Notes under the pieces: generated by a model | What the model was told of the DNA's origin: nothing | Database searches by the model: none | What the model saw: only the letters and a program-made list of their open reading frames with translations | From: Bacteroidota bacterium | GTDB lineage: Bacteria > Bacteroidota > Bacteroidia > Flavobacteriales > JADGDT01 | Assembly: GCA_039714315.1 (NCBI GenBank) | Contig: JBDLJM010000008.1 | Coordinates: 1 to 49,490 of the forward strand | Direction of reading: 5' to 3' | DNA length: 49,490 nucleotides | Part shown: positions 17,046 to 46,473 of the stretch, one piece after another | Layout of the letters: every line of letters begins with the position of its first letter | Numbering within the stretch: position 1 is the stretch's first letter | Program-made: the position numbers and the translations under genes

Positions 17046-17933
17046 TTATTGAGGTTCAACAAAATGTTTATGTTCTTTAAAGTGCGCAGGTGTAACGCCT
17101 ATTTTTTGTTTAAACATTCTAGAAAAGTATGAAGATGATTGAAACCCTAGTTCAAAACATATTTCTTTTACACTTTTATCAGAAGTAAGCAATAATTCTT
17201 TTGCTCTAATAACTTTTAACTGCAAGTGGTATTGCTTAGGAGACATTCCCGTATATTTTTTAAACATTTTTCTAAAATAAGAATATCCAATATTGTATTC
17301 ATCAGCAAGATCCTGCATATTCAGGTCTTTATCTATATTTTCTCTTAGCGAATATCGAATTTTATTTATAGCCTCTGACAACCTGTTGTTGTTAAAGTCA
17401 TCATTTTTAATATTTGCATTAATATGGCCTATAAGTTTTATAATAATAGCAGTTGAAATAGACTGGTAACTATGAGATTCTTTTTTAATTATCTCGAAAA
17501 TTTTATCGTAACATTCCAAAAACTGCTCATTAATTCCTACATGAACAACAGGTTTGTTTTTGTTTACAAGAAGTTGAGAAATAAAATGATCAGCAATATT
17601 ACCCTTAAAACCGATGTAATTAGTCATCCACCCGGTTTCTTCCGAGGGTTTGTATCTGTGCCATTGTCCAGGATAAACAATAACAAAACTACCCTCATCT
17701 ATTTCTAAAGTAGCAAATTTATTTTCAAATATGCCTTTTCCCTTAGTTATGTATATAATCTGATATTCATCAAGAATACGACCTTCTTCCCAGCTAAAAT
17801 AGTATTCTGTAGGATGGTCTTTCGAAGGGTAAATTTCGTGAGGTTTAACATGCGACTTTCCTATTGAGTCGATGTATATTCCCCATTTTTTTTCCTCTTC
17901 ACTGATGGTAAGATATTTCTTAAAATTATTCAT
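17046..17933 (-). CDS. AraC family transcriptional regulator (likely activator of the adjacent locus)
   Basis: The 295-residue protein has an N-terminal AraC-type cupin sensor (about 20-160; DEYQIIYITKGKGIFE and VYPGQWHRYKP). The C-terminal AraC DNA-binding domain (about 190-290) has two helix-turn-helix units, LNMQDLADEYNIGYSYFRKM and KEICFELGFQSSSYFSRMFK. Sugar-sensing activators of this class bind direct repeats about 21 bp apart that overlap the -35 region. Eight such sites are found between here and 46539, each upstream of a gene of the carbohydrate locus, with the first only 67 bp upstream of this gene's start. It is therefore the best candidate for the locus activator; this is inference. 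No SusR-like, HTCS or ECF/anti-sigma regulator is present. Confidence 0.92.
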   Translation of the reverse strand: MNNFKKYLTISEEEKKWGIYIDSIGKSHVKPHEIYPSKDHPTEYYFSWEEGRILDEYQIIYITKGKGIFENKFATLEIDEGSFVIVYPGQWHRYKPSEETGWMTNYIGFKGNIADHFISQLLVNKNKPVVHVGINEQFLECYDKIFEIIKKESHSYQSISTAIIIKLIGHINANIKNDDFNNNRLSEAINKIRYSLRENIDKDLNMQDLADEYNIGYSYFRKMFKKYTGMSPKQYHLQLKVIRAKELLLTSDKSVKEICFELGFQSSSYFSRMFKQKIGVTPAHFKEHKHFVEPQ

Positions 17934-25125: not shown

Positions 25126-28104
25126 ATGAAATTAATAAAACTCAGAAGTTTATTTACATTCCTCCTGTTCTTGTTATCATTCTTATTTACTGATTTACAT
25201 GCTCAGGATGCGTACATAAGTGGTGTGATTACTGATAAAGCAACCGGAGAGACCCTAATTGGTGCTAACGTAGTTGTAGAGGGAACATCTATAGGTGTAG
25301 CTGCCGATTTAGATGGAAGCTATACTATAACTGGTGTTACTCCGGGTGATTATATATTATGGGTGTCTTACATTGGTTATGCAGATGCTAAAATTCCTAT
25401 TTCTGTTGCGGCTGGTGAAAAGCTAAAAAAGGATGTTTCACTTTCGTATGGTGGCGCAGTTGGTCTGGATGAGGTAGTTATTACTGCTCAGGCCAAAGGT
25501 CAGGTTAATGCCATAAATCGTCAGTTGAATTCAAAGTCTATCAAGAATGTTGTTTCTGCCGAGAAAATTCAGGAATTACCGGATGCAAACGCAGCCGAAA
25601 CTCTTGGTCGTTTACCCGGGGTTTCAGTAAATCGTTCGGGAGGTGAAGGTAGTAAAGTTGTTGTACGTGGATTATCTCCTAAATATAACAAAGTAACGAT
25701 GGAAGGTGTATCTATGGCAGCTTCCGGAGATGATCGTAGTGCAGATATTTCTATGATATCGCCATATTCTCTTGATGGTATTGAGGTTTATAAAGCTGCA
25801 ACTGCCGATAAAGACGGAGAATTTGTAGGTGGTATGATCGAGTTTAAATTAAGAGAAGCCCGTTCAGGTTTTAACGCTGATGTTGTTGGACAAATGGGCT
25901 ACAATGACTTAAAAGGAACTTATGATGATTACTTGGTAAATGCAAGTATTAGTAACAGGTTTTTTGATGATAAATTTGGAGTGTATTTTCAGGGTAATAT
26001 TGAAAAACGTAATCGTAGTGCCAACACAATGAAAGGTGATTACGATGTTTGGACTACTGCTGCAGGAGGAGAATATAATAAGGTTAGAACAAAAGGAGCT
26101 TCTCTTTCTGATGTTATCAGAGAAAAGAAACGTCAGGGAGCTACTATGGTTTTGGATTATAGAATAAATGAAGGTTCTATTAAGTTTATGAACTTTTTCA
26201 GTAATAGTAATACAAGTAAAGATACTTATACTGATAATGTATCTTCTGATTTAGAAGGTAGTAATTTATATAATATTATTTCCGGTCAAAGGGAATCTTC
26301 TGAATTAATGAACTATAGTAATATTTTGGCTTACGAACAGCAATTCAATAAGTTGAAAGTTGAGTCTAAGCTATCTCATTCTTACTCAGAGAATATAACT
26401 CCTTTTCAATTAGAAGGACGTTATTTTCAAGGAAATGGAGTGTTTGATAATCCAGATTTCTTATATGACCAAGTTGCTCCAGCAGTAGTTTTGGATAGTG
26501 CAATAATTGATCCAAAGACGGCTTATTTAACTGATGTAGTTTCTAAGGATGTTACAACAAACGAGCGTCAGTTAGCCGGGACATTAGATTTAACTTATGA
26601 TTTCAAAATTAATGATCAGATAAATGGATTAATTAAATTTGGAGGTAAGTATCGTACAAAACAACGTTCAAAAGATAAGAATGGTTGGGGTGCTAATACG
26701 TCAATATCCTCAGCCGTTGCAACTGCACCAATCTGGGATGTAAATAACTCTGAATTTGATGAGTTAAGAGCTAGATATATGGCAGAGAATCCTGATGCTG
26801 ATATAAATAATTTAGATGGATTAATTTTTTATTATTTAGCTGATAACCCTGATTTTGATCATGAAAATTATATGAACGGGGATTATACTATGGGGTCAGT
26901 AGTTGATTTGGATTTATTAGCTGATATGCACTCTGCTATGTATGATTACGAGAAAGAAGGAGCGAGTACTTTTACTTATGCAAAGACTTCTCAATCGTGG
27001 GATTATCACGGTACTGAAGAGTATAAGGCTGGTTATGTTATGGCAGAGGTGAATTTGGGTAGTAAAATTAAAGTTATTCCCGGTGTTCGTTACGAAAATA
27101 ATACTACCGAATATACAGGTGTTTATGGTGAGACAGATATAGCATTTAGAGAGAAAGTTTATAATAATGTTAGAGATACTACTGTAGTACGAAATAATGC
27201 ATATTTTTTACCGAGTATTCATCTACGTGTAAAACCTATCGATTGGTTTGATGTACGTGTTGCATATACACATACTTTATCTCGTCCGAGTTATTACCAA
27301 ATTGCTCCTCGAATGGATGTGGATGATATTAATGTTAGTTTCAACAACAATCAATTAGTACCGGAGTATTCTAAAAACTGGGATGTTTATTTCTCTTTCC
27401 ACTCAAATAACTTAGGATTGTTGACAGTAGGTGGTTTTACAAAGGCAATCGAGAACATGATTTTCGATCCGGGATATCAAACACTAAGCGATCCTTCAGT
27501 TTATGGTCTGCCGGCTTCGTATGAAGGTAAGATTATTAGAACAACTATTAATAGCGATAAAATAGCATATCTGTCAGGTTTAGAGTTCGATTGGCAATCT
27601 AACTTCTACTTTTTACCAGGAGCTTTAAAGGGACTGGTTATGAATATTAACTATACTTTCATTAGCTCGTCAGCACAATATCCGTTTACCGAACTGAAGG
27701 AGAACGGTGAGTATGAGGAAAATCCTTTTACAGGAATTTTAACACCTTTAAAAGAATATTTTGTTGATTATTATGAGGCGCCATTAGTTGATCAACCTGA
27801 ACATATTGTTAACATTGGTTTAGGGTACGACTATAAAGGCTTCTCTGCCCGTGTATCTATGCTTTATCAGTCTAGAATATTTAAAGGTTCTAATCAATGG
27901 AGGGAGCTGTCTTCTTATAATAAGGAGTATTTACGTTGGGATTTTACTGCTCGTCAAAAACTGGGACATGGATTTGAAATATTTACAAACGTGAATAACA
28001 TTACAAGTGCGAAAGATGTTACGGTTATTAGAGCTACCGGTTATGATAAAGCTATCTCAAACTACGGTATGACTGTAGATTTAGGTCTTAGATGGAGACT
28101 ATAA
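25126..28104 (+). CDS. TonB-dependent outer-membrane receptor with carboxypeptidase-D-like N-terminus
   Basis: The 992-residue receptor has a signal peptide (to about 26, LHAQ), a carboxypeptidase regulatory-like domain (about 28-112) and a plug (about 115-240). The plug contains ELPDANAAETLGRLPGVSVN and VVVRGLSPKYNKVTMEGV, and the C-terminal barrel ends GLRWRL. It should import oligosaccharide across the outer membrane with TonB energy. The plug resembles TonB receptors of the oligosaccharide group more than classical SusC, and no SusD gene is present anywhere in the window. It is transcribed with the beta-helix gene and is followed by a terminator. Confidence 0.93.
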   Translation: MKLIKLRSLFTFLLFLLSFLFTDLHAQDAYISGVITDKATGETLIGANVVVEGTSIGVAADLDGSYTITGVTPGDYILWVSYIGYADAKIPISVAAGEKLKKDVSLSYGGAVGLDEVVITAQAKGQVNAINRQLNSKSIKNVVSAEKIQELPDANAAETLGRLPGVSVNRSGGEGSKVVVRGLSPKYNKVTMEGVSMAASGDDRSADISMISPYSLDGIEVYKAATADKDGEFVGGMIEFKLREARSGFNADVVGQMGYNDLKGTYDDYLVNASISNRFFDDKFGVYFQGNIEKRNRSANTMKGDYDVWTTAAGGEYNKVRTKGASLSDVIREKKRQGATMVLDYRINEGSIKFMNFFSNSNTSKDTYTDNVSSDLEGSNLYNIISGQRESSELMNYSNILAYEQQFNKLKVESKLSHSYSENITPFQLEGRYFQGNGVFDNPDFLYDQVAPAVVLDSAIIDPKTAYLTDVVSKDVTTNERQLAGTLDLTYDFKINDQINGLIKFGGKYRTKQRSKDKNGWGANTSISSAVATAPIWDVNNSEFDELRARYMAENPDADINNLDGLIFYYLADNPDFDHENYMNGDYTMGSVVDLDLLADMHSAMYDYEKEGASTFTYAKTSQSWDYHGTEEYKAGYVMAEVNLGSKIKVIPGVRYENNTTEYTGVYGETDIAFREKVYNNVRDTTVVRNNAYFLPSIHLRVKPIDWFDVRVAYTHTLSRPSYYQIAPRMDVDDINVSFNNNQLVPEYSKNWDVYFSFHSNNLGLLTVGGFTKAIENMIFDPGYQTLSDPSVYGLPASYEGKIIRTTINSDKIAYLSGLEFDWQSNFYFLPGALKGLVMNINYTFISSSAQYPFTELKENGEYEENPFTGILTPLKEYFVDYYEAPLVDQPEHIVNIGLGYDYKGFSARVSMLYQSRIFKGSNQWRELSSYNKEYLRWDFTARQKLGHGFEIFTNVNNITSAKDVTVIRATGYDKAISNYGMTVDLGLRWRL

Positions 28105-28998: not shown

Positions 28999-30297
28999 AT
29001 GAATATAAAATCTATCAAAGAAATAGCGTTAAAGTTTGCTTTAATGTTTGCAATTTTAGGAGGAGCTTCATGTTCTCAACAAGCAGATAAAAAACAAGAG
29101 ATTGTTAAGGTTGCTGCTGAGGCTAATGGAAATTACGATGTAATTTCGGCTAAGGAAGAAAAAGAAATTAGAGATGCTCATAAATCAGAATCTGCAAAAT
29201 GGAAAAACGGATTGTCTCAAGATCCAAATTATTTTCCATTAGCAGTATGGCTACAGGATGCTAAGTATGCAAAGCAATACAAAGAAATAGGGATTAATCT
29301 TTATGTTGCTAAGTGGGGTCCTGTGACCGAGGATTACCTTGCGAAATTAAAAGAAGCAGATATGAAAACTATTTGTGGATTAGATGAGGTAACTAAAAAA
29401 CATATAGATAATCCAACAATTGTCGGGTGGCATATGTTACCTGATGAGCCGGATAATGCCCAGCCTGCAAAAGAAGGACACGGGTATGGACCTTGCCAGG
29501 GACCGGATGAAACAAAAATGACTTATGATGCTATAAAAGCAATTGATGATACTCGTCCTGTATATTTAGGATTAGGAGTAGGTATTGCTTACCACCCATA
29601 CCGTGGTAGAGGTAGTGAGTGTGGCGGTGATACAACTTCTTACCCTCACTACACAAAAGCAGGAGATATTTTTGGATGGGATGTATATCCTGTTGCAGGA
29701 CCACCACAGCCACGTGCAGCCGGTGACTTCGGATACATAGGCTACGGTATGGATAACATGGGGCGTTGGGCTCACGGTAAAGATACCTGGATGGCTATTG
29801 GTACTACTCGTATTCGTAAAACAGGATTAATGCCAACAGGTGACGATGTACAGGCAGCAGTTTGGATGGCATTAATTCATGGAGCAAAAGGTATTGTTTA
29901 TTTTTCTCACGGTTTTTATCCAAAATTAAATGAGATTGGATTACTTACAAACACTCCTGTAACCGAAGCTGTAAAAGTAATGAATGGTCAGATTATGTCA
30001 TTGGCACCGGTATTAAACTCTCCAACTGTAAAGGGTTTGGTTAAAGTACAAGATATGCCATACGATATGCAGGTTGATACTATGGTAAAGGAGTATGATG
30101 GTTACTACTATATTTTTGCAATCGAAAATAATGGAGAGCAATTATCGGCAGTTTTCGAACTTGATAAATCGATAAGAGGAAAGAAAGCTGAGGTTCTTTT
30201 TGAAGATAGAACTATTGAAATTGGAGGTGGTATTTTTGTTGATAACTTTACTCAGAAAACTGGATTCCAACATCATATCTATAAAATTAAGAAGTAG
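28999..30297 (+). CDS. Lipoprotein with (beta/alpha)8 glycosidase-like domain, apparently lacking the nucleophile
   Basis: The 432-residue lipoprotein (lipobox GGASC, Cys25) has a TIM-barrel-like domain of about 75-350 that starts PNYFPLAVWLQ. WHMLPDEPDNA puts a Glu at 150 in the place of the clan GH-A acid/base (DEP instead of NEP). The paralogue at 37745 has AIEAS at the predicted beta-7 nucleophile position; here the same place reads AIGTT (Gly268). HGAKGIVYFSH is the likely beta-8 strand and matches the paralogue closely. A C-terminal beta domain (about 350-432) follows. It may bind without cleaving, or use another residue. No family is assigned with certainty. Confidence 0.7.
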   Translation: MNIKSIKEIALKFALMFAILGGASCSQQADKKQEIVKVAAEANGNYDVISAKEEKEIRDAHKSESAKWKNGLSQDPNYFPLAVWLQDAKYAKQYKEIGINLYVAKWGPVTEDYLAKLKEADMKTICGLDEVTKKHIDNPTIVGWHMLPDEPDNAQPAKEGHGYGPCQGPDETKMTYDAIKAIDDTRPVYLGLGVGIAYHPYRGRGSECGGDTTSYPHYTKAGDIFGWDVYPVAGPPQPRAAGDFGYIGYGMDNMGRWAHGKDTWMAIGTTRIRKTGLMPTGDDVQAAVWMALIHGAKGIVYFSHGFYPKLNEIGLLTNTPVTEAVKVMNGQIMSLAPVLNSPTVKGLVKVQDMPYDMQVDTMVKEYDGYYYIFAIENNGEQLSAVFELDKSIRGKKAEVLFEDRTIEIGGGIFVDNFTQKTGFQHHIYKIKK

Positions 30298-30498: not shown

Positions 30499-31320
30499 AT
30501 GTCATATTTAGATAAATTATTCAACCTCGAAGGTAGAGTAGCTGTAATTACAGGTGGTGGTGGTGCCATTGCTAGTAATATGGCCGAAGGATTTGTGAAA
30601 TCAGGTGCAAAAGTTGTACTTCTTGACCTTAGAAAAGAAGCTACTGACGAAGTAGTTGCTAAACTTTCAGAATTTGGAACTGTAGTAGGAAAAGCAGTTA
30701 ACGTACTTGAAGAGGGGGTGTTAAAATCAGTTTTAGCTGAAATTATCGAAGAGTTCGGAAAGGTTGATGTACTTATTAATGCCGCCGGAGGAAATATGCC
30801 TGGAGCAACTATTGGTCCTGATCAAACTATTTTTGATTTAGATATGGAAGCTTTCTCAAAAGTTACTACACTAAACCTTGATGGTTCTGTACTTCCATCT
30901 TTGATATTTGGAGAACAAATGGCTAAACAAGGAACAGGTAACATTATAAATATTTCATCGATGGCTGCCGATAGAGTACTTACTCGTGTAGTTGGATATT
31001 CTGCTTCAAAAGCTGCAATAACAAACTTTACAAAATGGATGTCGGTTGAAATGGCTCAGAAATTCGAAGGAAATATCAGAGTTAACGCTATAGCACCCGG
31101 ATTTTTTGTAGGAGAGCAAAACCGTGCTTTAATGCTAAACGAAGATGGTTCGTTAACCGAAAGAGGAAATCAAATTATTTCGAATACCCCAATGGGACGT
31201 TTCGGTGATTTGAGCGAAACTGTAGGAGCAGCATTATTTTTAGTATCAGATGCAGCTAAGTTTATTACAGGTACTGTAGTTCCTGTTGATGGTGGATTTA
31301 GCGCATATAGCGGGGTGTAA
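30499..31320 (+). CDS. SDR-type D-mannonate oxidoreductase (fructuronate reductase)
   Basis: The 273-residue short-chain dehydrogenase has a Rossmann motif VITGGGGAIASNMAEGF, NAAGGN, and the catalytic Ser-Tyr-Lys set (ISSMAADR, then YSASKAA). The sequence closely resembles SDR proteins that act as D-mannonate oxidoreductases beside uxuA, interconverting fructuronate and D-mannonate. Assignment rests on this resemblance and on the uxuA gene 69 bp downstream. It is cytoplasmic and feeds hexuronate into the KDG route. Confidence 0.82.
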   Translation: MSYLDKLFNLEGRVAVITGGGGAIASNMAEGFVKSGAKVVLLDLRKEATDEVVAKLSEFGTVVGKAVNVLEEGVLKSVLAEIIEEFGKVDVLINAAGGNMPGATIGPDQTIFDLDMEAFSKVTTLNLDGSVLPSLIFGEQMAKQGTGNIINISSMAADRVLTRVVGYSASKAAITNFTKWMSVEMAQKFEGNIRVNAIAPGFFVGEQNRALMLNEDGSLTERGNQIISNTPMGRFGDLSETVGAALFLVSDAAKFITGTVVPVDGGFSAYSGV

Positions 31321-31389: not shown

Positions 31390-32583
31390 ATGGCATTAGA
31401 ACAAACATGGAGATGGTACGGCCCGAACGACCCTATCACTTTAGCAGAGGTAAAGCAAACAGGAGCAACAGGTATTGTTTCTGCTTTATCGCATATTCCT
31501 AACGGGGAAGTTTGGACGTTTGAAGAAATAAAAAAACGTCAGGAAATTATTGCGGAGGCAGGTTTAACTTGGTCGGTAATTGAAAGTATTCCTGTATCGG
31601 AAGATATTAAAAAGCAAAGTGGCGATTATAAGCAGCACATCGAAAACTACAAGCAATCGTTAATCAACGTTGGTAAATGTGGTATAGAAACGGTTTGTTA
31701 TAACTTCATGCCTGTGTTGGATTGGTCGCGTACAGATTTAATGCACCAATTCGAAGATGGTTCTTTCGCTTTGATGTTTAACCCAACGGCTTTTGCTGCT
31801 TTCGAATTGCATATTCTTAAGCGTAAAGGTGTAGAGGCAGAGTATTCAGAAGAAGAGAAGAAAGCTGCTAAAGACTATTACGAAAAACTTGACGATTCGG
31901 CTAAATTCGAACTTACTAAATCAATTCTAGGAGGTTTACCCGGATCGGAAGAGTCGTTCAGTATAGAGGATTTCCAAACTGTACTTGATGCTTATGCCCA
32001 TATTGATGCTGATAAACTTCGCGAGCACCTTTATTATTTCTTGAGAGAAGTAATTCCGGTTGCTGAAAGTGCAGGAGTTCGTATGGCTATTCACCCTGAT
32101 GATCCTCCAAAACCATTGTTAGGTTTGCCACGTATTGTAAGTAATATCAACGATGCAAAAGCACTTTGTGCTGCTGTTGATTCGCCTTCAAACGGAGTTA
32201 CTTTATGTACAGGTTCGTACGGTGTTGGTGTTGAAAACGACTTGGTAGAAATGACTCGTGAGTTAGCCGACAAAATTCACTTTATACACCTGCGTAACGT
32301 ATCGCGTGATGAAAGCGGATATTTTATGGAAGATAACCACATGGTAGGTGATGTTGATATGTACGGTGTAATGAAAGAGTTGCTTATTGAAGAGCGACGA
32401 AGAAAATCCGAAGGAAGAGCTGATTGGCAAATGCCTGTTCGTCCTGATCATGGACACCTTATGTTCGACGATATTAAAAAACAGAAAACAAATCCGGGTT
32501 ATTCTTTATACGGACGAATGAGAGGCTTAGCTGAAATTCGCGGGCTGGAAATTGGTGTTGAGCGTTCGTTAGACGAAAAATAA
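31390..32583 (+). CDS. uxuA: Mannonate dehydratase
   Basis: UxuA dehydrates D-mannonate to 2-keto-3-deoxy-D-gluconate (KDG). The 397-residue length is typical and the start EQTWRWYGPNDPITLAEV matches the enzyme family nearly end to end. Conserved TIM-barrel segments include VCYNFMPVLDWSRTDL, MAIHPDDPPKPLLGLPRI, GSYGVGVENDL and RPDHGHLMFDD. It lies in an operon with the mannonate oxidoreductase. KDG kinase and aldolase are not in the window. Its presence indicates that the locus yields glucuronate, or a related uronate that enters at fructuronate. Confidence 0.96.
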   Translation: MALEQTWRWYGPNDPITLAEVKQTGATGIVSALSHIPNGEVWTFEEIKKRQEIIAEAGLTWSVIESIPVSEDIKKQSGDYKQHIENYKQSLINVGKCGIETVCYNFMPVLDWSRTDLMHQFEDGSFALMFNPTAFAAFELHILKRKGVEAEYSEEEKKAAKDYYEKLDDSAKFELTKSILGGLPGSEESFSIEDFQTVLDAYAHIDADKLREHLYYFLREVIPVAESAGVRMAIHPDDPPKPLLGLPRIVSNINDAKALCAAVDSPSNGVTLCTGSYGVGVENDLVEMTRELADKIHFIHLRNVSRDESGYFMEDNHMVGDVDMYGVMKELLIEERRRKSEGRADWQMPVRPDHGHLMFDDIKKQKTNPGYSLYGRMRGLAEIRGLEIGVERSLDEK

Positions 32584-34033: not shown

Positions 34034-35113
34034 ATGAAAAACCATATTACTGTATTGGGGATATTTTTTTTAACATTTATTGGATGTGATACTGATTTAG
34101 TTACAAAAGTAAATCACGATAATGCAAAACTCCAATTTATGGGGCGTATTGCTCAAAGCGATTCTACTTCCGAATTGTATTGGTCCGGAACATCAGTTGA
34201 AATAGTATTTGAAGGAACAGAACTTTCTGCAACACTTAAGGACGGTGGTAAAAATTACTACAATGTTATTATTGATAACGACAGTATCTACACTCTCGAT
34301 TTAGAAAAAGGGAAAAAGAAATATAAGCTTGTCGAAAGTTTAGGTGAAGGAAAACATTCTGTTAAGTTATTCCGCCGTACAGAATGGACTTATGGTAAAA
34401 CAAGTTTTTATGGTTTTAGTTTCGATGAAGCCACAGAAGTTTTGGCGATAGCTAAAAAACAAAAAAACATCGAATTTTACGGGAATTCTATTACAAGTGG
34501 TTGGGCTGTTGAAGACTATTCAGGAAAAGATAATGCTAAAGGAACAAACACAAATAATTGGTATAGCTATGCAGCAGTAACGGCTCGTCATTTCGATGCT
34601 GATTATACATGTATATCTCGTGGAGGAATTGGTGTTACAGTAAGTTGGTACCCTATGAGAATGTCCGAAATGTACGATAGATTAAATCCGGATGATGCTA
34701 ATAGTAAATGGGATTTCACAAAATCAACTCCCGATGTAGTGGTGGTTAACCTTCTTCAAAATGATGCTTTTTTAGTTGTAAAACCAAACAATAACCAGTT
34801 TAAAGAGCGTTTTGGTGAAACAGCTCCAACAGATGAATTTTTGTCGAATGCTTATGCCGATTTTATTTCAACAATACGAGGCAAGTACCCTAATGCCGAA
34901 ATTGTTTGTTTGTTGGGGAATATGACAATAACTCAAGAAGGATCTAAATGGCCGACAATTGTTGCTAAGGCAGTAAACTCTTTGAAGGACGAAAAAATCA
35001 GCACTGTTTTTGTGCCGTATAAAAATACGCCGGGACATCCACGAATTGAAGAGCAGCAGATTATTGCTGATAGTTTGATATCAAATATTAATAAAAATAT
35101 AAACTGGAACTAA
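34034..35113 (+). CDS. CE2-like acetyl esterase lipoprotein (jelly roll plus SGNH hydrolase)
   Basis: The 359-residue lipoprotein (lipobox LTFIGC, Cys18) has an N-terminal beta-sandwich (about 28-140) and an SGNH hydrolase domain (about 145-355), the arrangement of carbohydrate esterase family 2. The nucleophile Ser is in FYGNSITSGWA, the oxyanion residues are near ISRGGIG and LLQND, and the catalytic His is in TPGHPRIEEQQ. CE2 enzymes often rely on a Ser-His dyad, consistent with no Asp at the usual DxxH position here. It should deacetylate a polysaccharide in the periplasm or at the outer membrane. Confidence 0.85.
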   Translation: MKNHITVLGIFFLTFIGCDTDLVTKVNHDNAKLQFMGRIAQSDSTSELYWSGTSVEIVFEGTELSATLKDGGKNYYNVIIDNDSIYTLDLEKGKKKYKLVESLGEGKHSVKLFRRTEWTYGKTSFYGFSFDEATEVLAIAKKQKNIEFYGNSITSGWAVEDYSGKDNAKGTNTNNWYSYAAVTARHFDADYTCISRGGIGVTVSWYPMRMSEMYDRLNPDDANSKWDFTKSTPDVVVVNLLQNDAFLVVKPNNNQFKERFGETAPTDEFLSNAYADFISTIRGKYPNAEIVCLLGNMTITQEGSKWPTIVAKAVNSLKDEKISTVFVPYKNTPGHPRIEEQQIIADSLISNINKNINWN

Positions 35114-35267: not shown

Positions 35268-37649
35268 ATGTACACTAATCTTAAGGTGTTTAAACTCCAA
35301 AAAGTAGTTGCTTTTGCTGTTGTTTTTGTAATGACAACTACTGCATTTGCACAACAAAACAATAAGTATTTACAAGCCGATTATTCAAAGTCGCTCGAGG
35401 CTATTTGGGATAAAAAAGAAGTGAAAGATTCTAAAATTATCGATGATTGTGAATCATTGGAAGGATGGGATTATGGAGCTTTGGGAAAGGCAGAATTATC
35501 AAGTAGATATTTTAAAAGTGGAAAAACATCAATAAAACTTACTTCGCCTGCTGAGTATAAAGACGGTTCGGAATATCCTATAGCCTATATGGAGCGATTT
35601 ATGAATGGCGCTAATATAGAAAAGTACAATCGTATTGCTGTTTGGATTTATGCCGAACATAAAAATGCTGATTTCTTTTATGTGTCTATAGAGTTTAAAA
35701 ACGATGGAAAAGAAAAAGTTCCGCAAAGAGTTCGTAAAGCCGGTAAAAATTATGTAAAACTAGAAACGGGAAAATGGAATAGAGTTTATTGGGAAATACC
35801 TTCTATGCCCCGCGATAAAGTAAAAGCAATAGCATTTGTATATACTATAAAAGGGAAGTCATTTAGAGGAGTAGGAGATGAAGTTTCTATTTATGTAGAT
35901 GATTTTGAACTTCAAAAAGTAGATGCTGATATAGATGAGAGCTGGAAGGTTGCACCCGGAAAAATTGCCTATAGCCACAATGGATATCTACCTGAATTCG
36001 AAAAAACAGCACTTGTAAATAATGTAAAAGCAAAGGAGTTTTCGATTGTTGACGTAAAAAGCCATAAAGTGGTTCTTAGCAAAAAAATAACTGCAAAAAA
36101 CACCCGTTTTGGAAAGTTTCAACTATTAGATTTTTCGGAATTAAAAAAAGAAGGAAGATATAAGATTGTGGTTGGAGGTTTAGAGAGTAAATCTTTTGCA
36201 ATTGGAAAAAATATTTGGGAACAAAGTATTTGGAATAACCTTAATTTTTGGAAAGCCGAACGCTGTGGTCAAACTGTAGATGGTATTCACGGTAATTGTC
36301 ACGCCGATGTGGTTTGTGAACATAACGGAAATAAGATTGTTGTAAATGGAGGTTGGCACGATGCCGGCGATTTAACTCAGATGATTTACAATACTGGCGA
36401 TGCAGTTGTAGCAATGTTGGAGTTGGCATCAAAGGTAGAAAAGTTGAATCCTAAAATGTATAATGCTTTTGTAGATGAAGCAAAATGGGGATTAGACTGG
36501 ATGTTGAAAACCCGTTTTGAAGATGGTTATCGTCATACTTTCGGAGGAATGTCGAAATATACTGATGGAGTTATGGGTACAAGTGACGATATTGTTTTTG
36601 AAGCTAAAAACCTTCCTTACGATAATTTTTTAAGTGCAATGGTATTGTCAAATTCAGCATTGTTTTTTCAAGAAAGTAATCCGGTTTTAGCACAGCGATG
36701 CAAAGAAGCTGCAATTGAAGACTGGAAATTTGCTACAGAAGGAATTACAGAGCTAAATGTAGAGCTTTGTGGAAATGCAACAATAGCCTCTATTAACTTA
36801 TTCAATCTTACTAATAACGGTAAGTATAAAGCAAAAGCAATAGAGTGGGGTGATGTATTGGTTGAAAGTCAACAAAAAGAGAAAACAAACTGGAGTGTTC
36901 CTTTATCAGGATTCTTTTATAAGTCGCCAAAACACGAGCAAATTTTACGATATAATCCAATAGGGATGGATCAGGCTCCGATTATTGCATTAAATAATTT
37001 ATATAAAGCTTTTCCTGAAAATCATGATGCAAAAAAATGGTATAACTCCCTAAAACTTTATGTGGAGTATATTAAAGAAACTTCGAAATTGTCTAATCCA
37101 TTTGAGATGATTCCTCAATCGATATACAATGTAAATGAAGTTCATAAACCTAGTGTTTACGGATTTAACCAGTCAACTTTGGCAAAATATAAAAAGTACG
37201 AGGATAAAGAGCCAATGTATGTAAAACAGGTAGAAAATGGATTAATACTCGGGGATGGGAATTATTTAAAAACCTTTCCGGTTTGGTATTCGCACCGTGG
37301 AAGTGCAGGAATTCAGCTTTCTCAGGCAAAAGGACTTTCTGTGGCATCGAAGCTAGTAGGCGATAAAGCCGGGCAGGAATTAGCAGTAAAACAGTTGCAG
37401 TGGATAGTGGGGCGTAACCCATTTGCGCAGAGTACTGTTTATGGCGAAGGATATGATTTTCCTCCAATGTATTTTGCATCATCTGGTCCTTTAGTAGGAG
37501 CTTTAGCCTGCGGTATTCAAACTTTTGCTAATAGAGATATCCCTAATTGGCCTGCAGCAGCTTGTTATAATTATAAGGAAATTTGGACTCATACCACATC
37601 GAGATATTTGTGGTTGATTAGTGAATTTATCGATGTTGATTTGCAGTAG
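35268..37649 (+). CDS. Glycoside hydrolase family 9 (endo-beta-glucanase type)
   Basis: The 793-residue protein has a signal peptide (to about 29, TTAFAQ), a carbohydrate-binding-like beta domain (about 58-215; CESLEGWDYG and IYVDDFELQ), a CelD-type Ig domain (about 225-315) and an alpha/alpha-barrel GH9 domain (about 318-790). Catalytic Asp residues lie in GGWHDAGDLTQM, WYSHRGSAG supplies the conserved His, and the acid Glu is probably in YKEIWTH. GH9 enzymes invert beta-1,4-glucosidic linkages. It has no T9SS sorting domain, so it probably works in the periplasm on imported oligosaccharides. It has its own regulon site. Confidence 0.92.
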   Translation: MYTNLKVFKLQKVVAFAVVFVMTTTAFAQQNNKYLQADYSKSLEAIWDKKEVKDSKIIDDCESLEGWDYGALGKAELSSRYFKSGKTSIKLTSPAEYKDGSEYPIAYMERFMNGANIEKYNRIAVWIYAEHKNADFFYVSIEFKNDGKEKVPQRVRKAGKNYVKLETGKWNRVYWEIPSMPRDKVKAIAFVYTIKGKSFRGVGDEVSIYVDDFELQKVDADIDESWKVAPGKIAYSHNGYLPEFEKTALVNNVKAKEFSIVDVKSHKVVLSKKITAKNTRFGKFQLLDFSELKKEGRYKIVVGGLESKSFAIGKNIWEQSIWNNLNFWKAERCGQTVDGIHGNCHADVVCEHNGNKIVVNGGWHDAGDLTQMIYNTGDAVVAMLELASKVEKLNPKMYNAFVDEAKWGLDWMLKTRFEDGYRHTFGGMSKYTDGVMGTSDDIVFEAKNLPYDNFLSAMVLSNSALFFQESNPVLAQRCKEAAIEDWKFATEGITELNVELCGNATIASINLFNLTNNGKYKAKAIEWGDVLVESQQKEKTNWSVPLSGFFYKSPKHEQILRYNPIGMDQAPIIALNNLYKAFPENHDAKKWYNSLKLYVEYIKETSKLSNPFEMIPQSIYNVNEVHKPSVYGFNQSTLAKYKKYEDKEPMYVKQVENGLILGDGNYLKTFPVWYSHRGSAGIQLSQAKGLSVASKLVGDKAGQELAVKQLQWIVGRNPFAQSTVYGEGYDFPPMYFASSGPLVGALACGIQTFANRDIPNWPAAACYNYKEIWTHTTSRYLWLISEFIDVDLQ

Positions 37650-37744: not shown

Positions 37745-39283
37745 ATGAATAAGCGAATTAAAATAATAACAGTTTTTGTGTTAGTGTTCAATTTTGTGAA
37801 TGCACAAAATTATGATGTTGCTCCTATGCAACCAACAAGTGCAGATATGGCTTTTGATGGTGAACAAGATTATTTTCCTCTAGGTGTTTGGATGCAACAA
37901 ACTAGTAAAGTAGAAGATTATAAAGCAATTGGAATAAATAATTATACTGCTTTGTGGGAAGGTTTAACAGCTCAAAAAGAAGCTGATTTAAAAGCAGCAG
38001 GAATGCCTTTAATAGTTGATCCTGTTGGATATATACATAGTACAGGAGAAACAAATGATTATGCATTAACTTTGTCGGAAGAAGATAGAAAGTTTATTAA
38101 AGCTTGGCTTAGCCCAACTGATGAACCTGATAATCCAAAGAAAAATCCTGAAACAGGAAAATATGATATTTATGTTTCTCCCGATTCAACTTATGCAATG
38201 TACGAGCATATAAAGGAAATAACTAATGATGGAAAACCAGTGTATTTAGGTATAGGACGTGGAGTTTCTGATATAAACTGGGTAGGAAGAGGCGCAAATA
38301 CCGGAAAATGGGAAATGTATGCTGAAGAAACATATGGTTATGTAACCGAAAGTGGTTCATGGATAAATGATGAAAGTACACCTGCAATAGGATTCTGTAA
38401 AGGAGGAGATATAGTTCATTATGATATATATCCTGCAAATTATATGGATAGAAAATTGGAGTGGGTACCAAAAGGTGTTGATAGTCTGGTAAGCTGGTCA
38501 AAGCCAGGAAAACCGATTTTTGTAGCGATTGAAGCTTCACAGATAAAGGATGAATATGGAGAACCAACACCAAGTGAAATTCGTACAGAAATATGGATGT
38601 CTATTATTCATGGAGCAAGAGGAGTAGTTTATTTTTCACATAGTTGGGTAGGAGGAACAACTAATGAGGATGCTTTATTGGATAATACTGAAATAGCAAA
38701 TGGAATTAAAGATATAAATGCCGAAATTACTTCTTTGGCTTCTGTGATTAATAGCCCTAACGAGTCGTTTGTTCAAGCTAAGCTTGTTTATAATCCCGAT
38801 TTTTATGGAACTATTGATTATGTATGTAAGTCGTTTGAAGACGATCACTACGTATTTGCGGTTGAAATGAGTAATAAAAAGAAAAAAGTAGAATTCTTTG
38901 TTCCTTCAGGAGTAACTTCTGTAGAAGTTATAAATGAAGATAGAACAATTGAAGTAGTTGACGGTAAGTTTAAAGATACTTTTGAAGCATATGATACTCA
39001 TTTATATAAATTATTGCCGAGTGGAGTAAACTTGTCGGAGAACGATAAGGTAATCGAGAGAAATATAGAAATATATCCTAACCCAACTACAGGACAAGTT
39101 TATGTAGGAGAAGATACTTCGGATAATGTTAATAAAATTGAAGTTTACTCTATGCAGGGGCAACTTATAAAGGTAGTAAGTAATCAGGATAATATAGATC
39201 TTTCTTTTGCAAGAAATCAGATGTTACTGTTAAAGATATATAGTAACAAAGGTGTTAAAACAGCAAAAGTTAGTGTGAAATAA
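37745..39283 (+). CDS. T9SS-secreted (beta/alpha)8 glycosidase-like protein
   Basis: The 512-residue protein has a signal peptide (to about 20, FVNAQ), a TIM-barrel-like domain (about 40-345), a small beta domain (about 345-430) and a T9SS type A sorting domain (YPNPTTGQVYVGE, about 438-512). Clan GH-A features are visible: an acid/base candidate Glu127 in SPTDEPDN and a nucleophile candidate Glu263 in FVAIEASQI, just before the beta-8 strand HGARGVVYFSHS. It is a paralogue of the lipoprotein at 28999, which keeps the first Glu but not the second. It is probably the surface enzyme that makes the first cuts. I cannot name a GH family. Confidence 0.75.
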   Translation: MNKRIKIITVFVLVFNFVNAQNYDVAPMQPTSADMAFDGEQDYFPLGVWMQQTSKVEDYKAIGINNYTALWEGLTAQKEADLKAAGMPLIVDPVGYIHSTGETNDYALTLSEEDRKFIKAWLSPTDEPDNPKKNPETGKYDIYVSPDSTYAMYEHIKEITNDGKPVYLGIGRGVSDINWVGRGANTGKWEMYAEETYGYVTESGSWINDESTPAIGFCKGGDIVHYDIYPANYMDRKLEWVPKGVDSLVSWSKPGKPIFVAIEASQIKDEYGEPTPSEIRTEIWMSIIHGARGVVYFSHSWVGGTTNEDALLDNTEIANGIKDINAEITSLASVINSPNESFVQAKLVYNPDFYGTIDYVCKSFEDDHYVFAVEMSNKKKKVEFFVPSGVTSVEVINEDRTIEVVDGKFKDTFEAYDTHLYKLLPSGVNLSENDKVIERNIEIYPNPTTGQVYVGEDTSDNVNKIEVYSMQGQLIKVVSNQDNIDLSFARNQMLLLKIYSNKGVKTAKVSVK

Positions 39284-43337: not shown

Positions 43338-43404
43338 TATCATTTAGTGTCATAAGTATGCCATTTCATTTATTGCTTTTATAATTACTTAGGTTGTACA
43401 TTCG
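43338..43404 (+). promoter_or_regulatory. Regulon site 7: operator and promoter of the 986-residue protein
   Basis: Half-sites TATCATTTAGTGTCATA (43338) and TGCCATTTCATTTATTG (43359) are 21 bp apart. TTG at 43373-43375 is followed by 21 bp and TACATTCG (43397-43404). Here the distal half matches the consensus better than the proximal one does. Confidence 0.8.
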
Positions 43405-43448: not shown

Positions 43449-46409
43449 ATGAATCTGAAAAACTCTGTAATAAATTTCAAGTCTAAAATTGTTAATTCAA
43501 TTTTTGTTTTAACAATGTTTTTATTTGCTTCGGGGCAGATGATGGCACAAACCATTATTAATACTTCTCATTTTAAGGCATATGATGATGCCGGAGTAAC
43601 AGCAAATACTACTTTTGGACGTTTAAATAATGTTGAAACATCGCTGATATTAGCATTTCAGCTTCCTGCTATTTCGGCAGAAGAATCAATATTAGATGCG
43701 CGATTACAATTAGAGATAACTACGGGTAGTCAGGCTACTTCATTCAGAGCTTTGGATATTGATGTTTTACCAAATAAAACAACTACAATTAGCAGTGCAG
43801 ATATGGGTACTGGAGCTAATGCTCAAACTCATTTTATTGATGGACATGGAGTAAGTATATCTGAAGATATTTCGCTTGCAATATCACAACAAATTGCAAG
43901 TGGTAATGTTGTAGAAGGCGATTATATTGTTTTGGAGTTAAAGTTAGGTGATTATGCACCTGCCGATAAGTATGTAAAGATATATGCAACGGGAACACCA
44001 ACATTGACTTTAACAGTAGGTACACCTCCCGACCCTACAGCACCAGTTATTGAGACTATCGACGATGCAACAGTATTTACCGGTTATGGAAAGAAAATTA
44101 TGGTAACTGCATCTGATGTTAATAAAGAAGACCATATAGCGTTTAGCTTAGATGCAGGAAGTGCTTCGGGATTTGTAACATTATCAGATAATGGAGATGG
44201 TACTGCCCAAATATCTATAGCAAATACAACAGTACCGGCAGATGAAGATTCTTATAATATTATAGTTACTGCTACTGATAATAGTGCAGACGTATTGTCT
44301 TCGACTGAAAGTTTTGTATTAGAAGTATCGCCCGTAGGTACTGTAACAGAAATAGAGCAAAATGGAATTACCTGGACTTTGCTTGGCGATGTTGAGCAAG
44401 GTACTTATGCAAATGGCGATAACTGGGTTGTTGGACCGGTAACAGTTATTAATATTTCGCCTGAGTCGTTTAAATACGAAATGACAACCAGTGCAAGTGG
44501 TGTAGAACTTCCTGCAATTGGTTACGATTTTGGAGATGATCCTTATACATATCAACCTACTCCGGGAGAATATAGAATAGTACACGGATCGATGCTGAAT
44601 CCTGTTGCTGACAGAGCGCTGAATCACGGTTGGGAAAGTGAGTTTACCGTGTGGAAAAAAGGACAAAGAGTTTATCCTGGCAATTCAGATAATTATAAAG
44701 AGGAGCTAAATGTAGCCCGTGCCGATAGAGGAGATGGTGTTTATGAGCCAATTAATCCGGGGAAACCTTTAGTTATTGAAGCGAACAATTCGTTGATGTC
44801 AACTGAGTCGTTAGATTTACCTGCTCGTCCAAATCTTAAAGCTGCGGCAGTATTAACTATTGTTTCCGAAGATAATCGTCCAAATGTTGGAGATTTTCGC
44901 CCTGCTTATTCTAGTGCCGATAAAAAATCTTATTTCAATATTTCTGATTTAGATTATTCTTCACTGGGAAATATGTCTCGTTCCGATTCATTAATGCCAT
45001 TGACAAGTATTGAGGGTTATTTTGAAAGAGTGTGGTTAGACTATATTCCTGAGTGGAGTGGTGAGTTTTCTCATCCTGTTGATAATATGCAAGGTTCATA
45101 CGGTGCAGCCGTAGCATCGATGATTGGAGCGGGAGCTATTGCTTTAAATACCGATTTTACTACATCATACAATGGAGGGACTCCTGCCGATGGAGAAACA
45201 TACAACGATAAATCGAAGTTGCTAATGCGTATGGTACAGCTTGGTATTGATTATTACGGAGTAGTAACCGGACCTGATAATCCGGCTACAGATTTACACG
45301 ATTCTCAAACAGTATTCCGCGAAAATGGAGGACACCTTACCGGACGTAAATTTCCAATATTACTTGCAGGTAAAACACTTTTGAATAATACTACAGGCGA
45401 GGCTGCTGTTATTGCCAATAAAATGTTGAATATCGCAACTGAGCACCCATCAATAGTGTTTAGTGAAGATGGACAAACAAGGTATGTTAATCAGTATGAT
45501 ACTGAATACTCGGCAGAACCTAAAACAGAAGGACCTAGTTCTACATCGCCAAGCGGTTGGAATTACGATTATAGAGACTGGAGTTATGATTGGGAGCCTT
45601 ATGCAGTGTCAAAAGGATTGCCACTGGGGGGAGAGTATTATGGGATGCCATATACTCAGGAGGATATAGGTTTACCTGAGTATGGAATTACGTACACATT
45701 CAAACCTTTTGTATCGCACAAATATTGGAATACAGCTTATCGTAGATGTTGTACACATTCATCGATGCAGGGTATAGTATTAGCTGTACACGCTATGGGT
45801 CTGAAAGAAGTATGGGGGCACCAGGCATTGTTTGATTACGTAGACAGATTTATGTCAGTAGAGCTTCAGATTGCAGAGGTAACAGAAGCAAAAGGTTCTT
45901 TTTCTATGGCGGATGATAATAGTGTGGAATACACCGAATATCATCCTGATCTTAAATCGGAGCTGAAGATTGATAATGTAAAAGGACGTCTTCCTTTACG
46001 ACCGGAAAATCCTGAATTCAAATGGAGCTATAGTCTGTATAAATCATGGAAGCATCACAGAGAAAGTTTTGGAGATGTATGGAGAAGATATGATGAGGGT
46101 GATATTTATAGTAATGGAAAAAGAAATACACTCGGATTACCTAAAAACAATATAAAACCTGAAGGTGTTAAAGTATATCCTCAACCTGTAAAAGGTAATA
46201 GTTTCACGGTTTCATTGTCATCTTCTGATGAAAAAGAACTTTCTGTAGAGATTTATAGTTTAACTGGATCATTAGTTTACTCAAGAATAGTAAATGTTGC
46301 TTCTAAGTCAATCGAAGTATCAGGAATGGGTAAATTACCTCAGGGGGTTTATGTTCTTAAAGTAAAAGGAAATGATATAAATATCAGTCAACGATTGTTG
46401 GTAGAGTAG
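43449..46409 (+). CDS. Large T9SS-secreted protein with putative alpha-toroid catalytic core
   Basis: The 986-residue protein has a signal peptide (to about 34, MMAQ), a beta domain (about 36-190), an Ig/cadherin-like domain (about 198-295), a beta region starting NGITWTLLGD with GDNWVVGPVTV (about 303-440), a helical core (about 450-905) and a T9SS sorting domain (about 912-986). The core has NGGHLTGRKFP (626-636) and RRCCTHSSMQG (765-775), with His, Arg and Cys in conserved-looking settings. The layout suggests an alpha/alpha-toroid hydrolase or lyase. The first two domains resemble parts of the protein at 19831. No CAZy family is assigned. Confidence 0.75.
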   Translation: MNLKNSVINFKSKIVNSIFVLTMFLFASGQMMAQTIINTSHFKAYDDAGVTANTTFGRLNNVETSLILAFQLPAISAEESILDARLQLEITTGSQATSFRALDIDVLPNKTTTISSADMGTGANAQTHFIDGHGVSISEDISLAISQQIASGNVVEGDYIVLELKLGDYAPADKYVKIYATGTPTLTLTVGTPPDPTAPVIETIDDATVFTGYGKKIMVTASDVNKEDHIAFSLDAGSASGFVTLSDNGDGTAQISIANTTVPADEDSYNIIVTATDNSADVLSSTESFVLEVSPVGTVTEIEQNGITWTLLGDVEQGTYANGDNWVVGPVTVINISPESFKYEMTTSASGVELPAIGYDFGDDPYTYQPTPGEYRIVHGSMLNPVADRALNHGWESEFTVWKKGQRVYPGNSDNYKEELNVARADRGDGVYEPINPGKPLVIEANNSLMSTESLDLPARPNLKAAAVLTIVSEDNRPNVGDFRPAYSSADKKSYFNISDLDYSSLGNMSRSDSLMPLTSIEGYFERVWLDYIPEWSGEFSHPVDNMQGSYGAAVASMIGAGAIALNTDFTTSYNGGTPADGETYNDKSKLLMRMVQLGIDYYGVVTGPDNPATDLHDSQTVFRENGGHLTGRKFPILLAGKTLLNNTTGEAAVIANKMLNIATEHPSIVFSEDGQTRYVNQYDTEYSAEPKTEGPSSTSPSGWNYDYRDWSYDWEPYAVSKGLPLGGEYYGMPYTQEDIGLPEYGITYTFKPFVSHKYWNTAYRRCCTHSSMQGIVLAVHAMGLKEVWGHQALFDYVDRFMSVELQIAEVTEAKGSFSMADDNSVEYTEYHPDLKSELKIDNVKGRLPLRPENPEFKWSYSLYKSWKHHRESFGDVWRRYDEGDIYSNGKRNTLGLPKNNIKPEGVKVYPQPVKGNSFTVSLSSSDEKELSVEIYSLTGSLVYSRIVNVASKSIEVSGMGKLPQGVYVLKVKGNDINISQRLLVE

Positions 46410-46433: not shown

Positions 46434-46465
46434 AAAAAACTCAAGATATCTCTTGAGTTTTTTTT
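46434..46465 (+). terminator. Terminator after the 986-residue protein gene
   Basis: AAAAAACTCAAGA-TATC-TCTTGAGTTTTTT is a perfect 13-bp stem with a 4-nt loop and a T-run. Regulon site 8 begins 9 bp further on. Confidence 0.92.
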
Positions 46466-46473
46466 ATTTGAAG

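Follow-up and report, generated by a model that had tools for sequence, protein, structure and literature searches.

The window studied here, a 49,490-nucleotide stretch of DNA from a Bacteroidota bacterium, holds a sugar-use locus in which a gene at 43449-46409 (+ strand) encodes a predicted secreted protein of 986 residues, and the question that it raises is what the central part of this protein does. A first-pass annotation had seen there a candidate new enzyme-like domain, and our results support such a putative domain. The further suggestion that the protein may be the missing depolymerase of the locus stands in part: relatives in phage tails and exopolysaccharide (EPS) clusters make a depolymerase role likely, while the word "missing" goes too far, a GH9 protein being already present in the locus. 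Most probably the protein is secreted and depolymerises polysaccharides, as a member of a family that is so far undescribed.

The open reading frame, 986 residues from an ATG, is present as originally called, and it has paralogues in the same genome. All of its parts lie on the + strand. A signal peptide, judged by eye (KSKIVNSIFVLTMFLFASGQMMAQ), covers residues 1-34 (43449-43550) and is followed by an N-terminal accessory beta module (residues 36-190; 43554-44018), which has no Pfam match and varies between paralogues, and by an Ig/cadherin-like linker module (residues 195-297; 44031-44339), recognised by eye and with nothing over cut-off in Pfam. The family core, our candidate catalytic unit, occupies residues 299-892 (44343-46124) according to alignments A2, A5 and A6 and an AlphaFold model, and is rich in aromatic residues (W 2.4%, Y 6.7%, F 3.0%), as had been remarked. 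A T9SS type A sorting domain (residues 909-985; 46173-46403) was found over cut-off both in Pfam (PF18962, E 2.9e-10, 40.7 bits, cut-off 27) and in NCBIfam (TIGR04183, 41.6 bits, cut-off 23), and the export by T9SS that had been proposed is thereby predicted here as well. A likely intrinsic terminator, with a ACTCAAGA/TCTTGAGT stem and a T run, was seen by eye at 46439-46467 (+).

The locus extends from about 17046 to 48192. It encodes an AraC-type regulator (17046-17933, - strand; PF12833, PF02311) and, on the + strand, a TonB-dependent receptor (25126-28104; TIGR01782, 387 bits), a D-mannonate oxidoreductase (30499-31320; NF006132, 349 bits, cut-off 281), the mannonate dehydratase UxuA (31390-32583; TIGR00695, 560 bits), a CE2-like acetyl esterase (34034-35113; PF17996, E 1.7e-28) and the GH9 protein (35268-37649; PF00759, E 3.2e-24); an EamA permease, several T9SS proteins and an SSF symporter also belong to it. 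Two related proteins (28999-30297 and 37745-39283; 32% identity, E 1e-52), one of them with a T9SS tail, have no Pfam match outside that tail and look, by eye, like TIM-barrel glycosidases.

The motif TGYCATTTAGTGYATTGY matches eight times in the window against 0.49 expected, a count reached in none of 100 shuffles, and seven of these matches are intergenic and upstream of a gene of the sugar-use locus. The regulon site that had been ascribed to the 986-residue gene is indeed there: TGCCATTTCATTTATTGC (43359-43376, +), an operator-like site, lies 73-90 bp upstream of the start codon and, with three mismatches, ranks weakest among the eight. The AraC-type regulator may be the reader of these sites. 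Four matches (0.27 expected) also occur on contig C58, which carries a tandem pair of paralogues, some of them upstream of the paralogues. Contig C172 (L130) has three matches (0.07 expected) near genes for a 1156-residue secreted protein and a nitrilase-like protein, and is possibly another part of the regulon. A palindrome, TTGTACNNNNGTACAA, was rejected as a regulon site, its exact copy being unique and its looser count at chance level.

The paralogue pair adjoins GH3 genes. Contigs C108 (L126) and C58 (L009) have a GH3 reading frame end in common (ARLGGGGSASVSACRTVSPLKGL...) and therefore probably adjoin, which would bring close to the pair the C108 genes for a KDG kinase, a KDPG aldolase and a protein that combines polysaccharide-deacetylase with glucuronoyl-esterase domains. 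Elsewhere the source genome holds UxaC with a TRAP transporter, and KduI-KduD occur with KDG kinase and KDPG aldolase (TRAP, KduD, KDG kinase and KDPG aldolase were named by eye from translations). GH88 and GH105, the usual next enzymes acting on unsaturated uronides, gave no match in the whole source genome despite KduI, KduD, UxaC and UxuA. Because UxaC/UxuA and KduI-KduD are present and GH88/GH105 absent, use of saturated uronates by the organism is well supported by its predicted gene content, and use of unsaturated ones is possible.

Pfam and NCBIfam searches of the whole protein returned the T9SS sorting domain as sole match, and the core (residues 299-892) matched no enzyme family of either collection over curated cut-off. 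Searching the PDB sequences with phmmer likewise gave a sorting-domain match only, the profile of alignment A6 (94 members) picked up no PDB chain even with the E limit set at 10, and literature searches found the family of the core described nowhere. A weak GH28 profile match in four of the 94 members (best E 6e-5) was given no weight. The one family that does cover the core is phrog_34846 of PHROGs v4, whose function has no name and which matches the core of the window protein (E 2.9e-32) and 94/94 members of A6 (best E 1.6e-114). The earlier statement that the central part matches no family thus stands for Pfam, NCBIfam and PDB sequences and falls with phrog_34846 and with three paralogues in the same genome, namely the tandem pair (identities of 42 and 51%) and, on contig C191, a more remote and shorter copy (31%). 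Judged against Pfam, NCBIfam, PDB sequences and the literature, the core family is undescribed, and phrog_34846 alone covers it.

The core is no orphan. The family that we gathered exceeds 100 members, drawn from Planctomycetota, Verrucomicrobiota, Pseudomonadota and Bacteroidota, among others. A scan of genome contigs with the single protein as query found nothing, and an alignment-based scan found 34 loci, spread over Planctomycetota, Verrucomicrobiota, Kiritimatiellota, Gammaproteobacteria, Spirochaetes, Bdellovibrionota, Myxococcota and Tenacibaculum. Within its own phylum the core is rare, since only two of 396 sampled genomes have it, one being the source genome itself; it occurs in 12/289 genomes sampled from the phylum of Verrucomicrobiae DG1235 and in 16/294 from that of a Planctomycetota MAG, phylum labels that rest on the seed loci L029 and L041, respectively. 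Two Planctomycetota genomes (L019 and L021) each have three consecutive copies. No plasmid homologue was found by tblastn. Many members are stand-alone secreted cores.

Members also occur in phages. Two viral models matched the core in Foldseek, both at about 1e-23, and tblastn found homologues in phages of Mycobacterium (some 20) and of Microcystis (two). Those of the Mycobacterium phages are tail-region genes. In Halley the homologue, gp45, is annotated as a minor tail protein (26% identity over 85% of the core, E 7e-30); it has an N-terminal ConA-like lectin domain, and its gene sits amid minor tail genes with lysin A downstream. For the cluster J phages, host preference has been noted as a possible reason for the variability of minor tail genes (PMC3706429). 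Gene 43 of phage Redno2 (NC_022066) is labelled "lysin A", yet it is a family member, and the lysin A annotation in Halley belongs to the gene two downstream of the family member. A further 18 loci with the core were found in IMG/VR, where neighbours include portal, head-tail adaptor, major head and minor tail proteins. In a tree built by a quick method, whose deep forks are weak, the viral members are scattered at several places among the bacterial ones, and for this reason transfer probably happened more than once.

A third setting is that of polysaccharide biosynthesis. Three kinds of gene recur around bacterial members: GT2 at seven loci, and a Wzy-like polymerase homologue and an Alg14/GT28-type transferase at six each. 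In an unselected set of neighbour genes GT2 accounts for 7/126, against at most 1/103 control genes of the same genomes. In clusters picked for this recurrence, which are selected and serve for description only, 21 of 96 genes are GT2, alongside Bac_transf, flippase-like and pyruvyl-transferase families. A search of six EPS-type clusters turned up no UDP-sugar dehydrogenase motif. Gene calling is rough in high-GC loci.

An AlphaFold model of the core built from 94 sequences (pLDDT 82.4, pTM 0.89; an earlier one from six sequences was poor, at pLDDT 54) predicts a beta domain first (residues 299-475; 44343-44873, +; pLDDT mostly 90-98) and then a helical domain (residues 505-880; 44961-46088, +), for which an alpha/alpha toroid is a plausible candidate fold. 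Counted along the core itself, strands run over residues 1-175 and helices over 220-576. All 73 rows that Foldseek returned for this model against the PDB had E above 0.001, and none was a significant match to the solved toroid lyases and hydrolases PL15, GH116, GH92 and GH154; the best row, the PL15 exo-alginate lyase Atu3025 (3afl), is not significant (E 0.73, probability 0.04, TM 0.11).

The two motifs singled out earlier, NGGHLTGRKFP and RRCCTHSSMQG, are found at residues 626-636 and 765-775, and the residues picked from them fared unequally across A6. The histidine given as His630 is H629, which is His in 70/94, and there is no strictly conserved His among the 94 members. The Cys pair (45747-45752, +), once proposed as catalytic, is rejected as such, C767 and C768 being kept in 37/94 and 40/94 members, or about 40%. 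Only Arg633 holds up (87/94). The strictest residues, R484, Q597, D601 and Y764, were absent from that list. F483-R484-P485 (44895-44903, +) is invariant in 94/94 members, and R484 occurs in every phage member; Q597 and D601 of a QxGID motif (45237-45251, +) are likewise invariant in A6 and retained in phages, except for one member with A597. Y764-R765 (45738-45743, +), a candidate acid/base tyrosine and its arginine, are kept in 93/94 and 90/94, Y764 being present in all full-length phage members (one viral row of the comparison was aligned over its first part only). R633-K634 (45345-45350, +; K634 in 91/94) and E673-D674 (45465-45470, +; 86/94 and 85/94) belong, with R765, D799 and R800, to a set in which each residue is kept in 85-91 of 94. 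E673 is lost in some phage members, where it is Ala. Over A6 and the phage members, D601 is the sole universally conserved acid, and there is no universal Asp/Glu pair.

The family thus has three genomic settings, a uronate-type sugar-use locus, polysaccharide-biosynthesis clusters and phage virion or structural modules, and what they share is a long cell-surface glycan; the depolymerase reading is preferred because it fits all three. The lack of a significant fold match to a solved lyase or hydrolase, and the solitary position of some members among housekeeping genes, count against it. In the sequence of events that we propose, the 986-residue protein would be made alongside a uronate-catabolic sugar-use locus, the type IX system would carry it out of the cell, and its core would cut glycan chains. 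R484, Q597, D601 and Y764 may line the active site, where an acidic sugar would be bound, Gln597, the arginines R484, R633 and R765 and Lys634 would offset its carboxylate, and Tyr764 would serve as acid/base in a beta-elimination. Such lyase chemistry is put forward tentatively, and it is slightly favoured over hydrolysis since D601 is the only invariant acid, while Tyr, Gln and Arg are invariant. It is a serious possibility, though one short of probable, that the core represents a novel family of polysaccharide lyases (or hydrolases) whose domain arrangement is as yet unsolved and whose active site lacks a conserved His (Arg484, Gln597, Asp601, Tyr764), put to three uses: feeding, trimming of the bacteria's own exopolysaccharides, and depolymerisation from the phage tail.

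We consider it rather unlikely that the core is a glycoside hydrolase of the inverting type, with D601 and either E673 or D674 (or D799) as acid and base. Such an enzyme would act beside GH9 on one polymer, and the saturated uronate released would enter UxaC-UxuB-UxuA, in keeping with the UxuA and mannonate oxidoreductase of the locus and with UxaC and its TRAP transporter elsewhere in the genome; GH116, GH92 and GH154 are among the weak Foldseek rows, which are not significant. A hydrolase is also spoken for by the missing GH88/GH105, by the EPS clusters that lack the UDP-sugar dehydrogenase motif, and by the mycobacterial hosts. M. smegmatis is not known for a uronate polymer, so that a lyase in its phages is awkward. 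However, in some members E673 gives way to Ala, Thr, Lys or Met, and D674 and D799 vary too, which leaves no strict two-acid pair, and Y764, Q597 and R484 form the stricter set.

It is unlikely that the core has no catalytic role and only binds a glycan, or serves as structure, at the cell surface or on the phage tail. Binding would also account for the three settings, and accessory modules such as CBM96 or the ConA-like lectin domain are fused to some members, yet those members then already carry separate lectin or CBM modules of their own. A core of about 450 residues with a constant R, Q, D, K, Y set across at least five phyla and phages counts against a binder, and binding fits the settings less well than cutting does because that polar set is constant in the many stand-alone secreted cores. 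An esterase or other enzyme removing acyl or methyl groups from the polymer is very improbable: it is suggested by the "carbohydrate esterase" annotation of a Microcystis phage member, the CE2 of the locus and the glucuronoyl-esterase-type gene next to the paralogues, but no conserved Ser-His pair is apparent in the helical domain, and the phage annotation spans 1171 residues, many of them beyond the core, in a protein where Pfam finds no esterase.

If the depolymerase reading is right, a single unnamed family would connect feeding on polysaccharides with the making of exopolysaccharides and with phage entry. It would likely be an additional CAZy family, with a ready set of proteins and residues to examine, and would supply candidate depolymerases, including some for the phages of Mycobacterium and Microcystis, about whose receptor-layer enzymes little is known.

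Among known systems, the neighbouring GH9 shares the locus, likely the substrate, and a helical enzyme class with the core, with no sequence or fold match between the two. PL15 Atu3025 and other toroid lyases resemble the core in general terms, having a helical and a beta domain, but the fold match to Atu3025 is not significant and there is no sequence match. The PL40 ulvan lyases (Uly1040, 9VTK) are likewise secreted marine PUL enzymes with helical and beta domains; in PL40 the toroid precedes the beta domain, and the site uses His/Tyr with Mn (PMC12915356). The reversed domain order predicted for the core and its lack of a strictly conserved His set it apart from this description, and PL40 was rejected as its identity on the different order and catalytic set. 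By contrast, phrog_34846 is the same family viewed from the phage side, as all 94 members match it, although it bears no functional name and leaves the secreted bacterial members undescribed. Halley gp45 and its relatives have a homologous core that keeps R484, Q597, D601, R633, K634, E673, Y764 and R765; they differ from the window protein in being encoded in the virion region, in having a ConA-like lectin domain and no T9SS tail, and in their changed positions 797 and 800.
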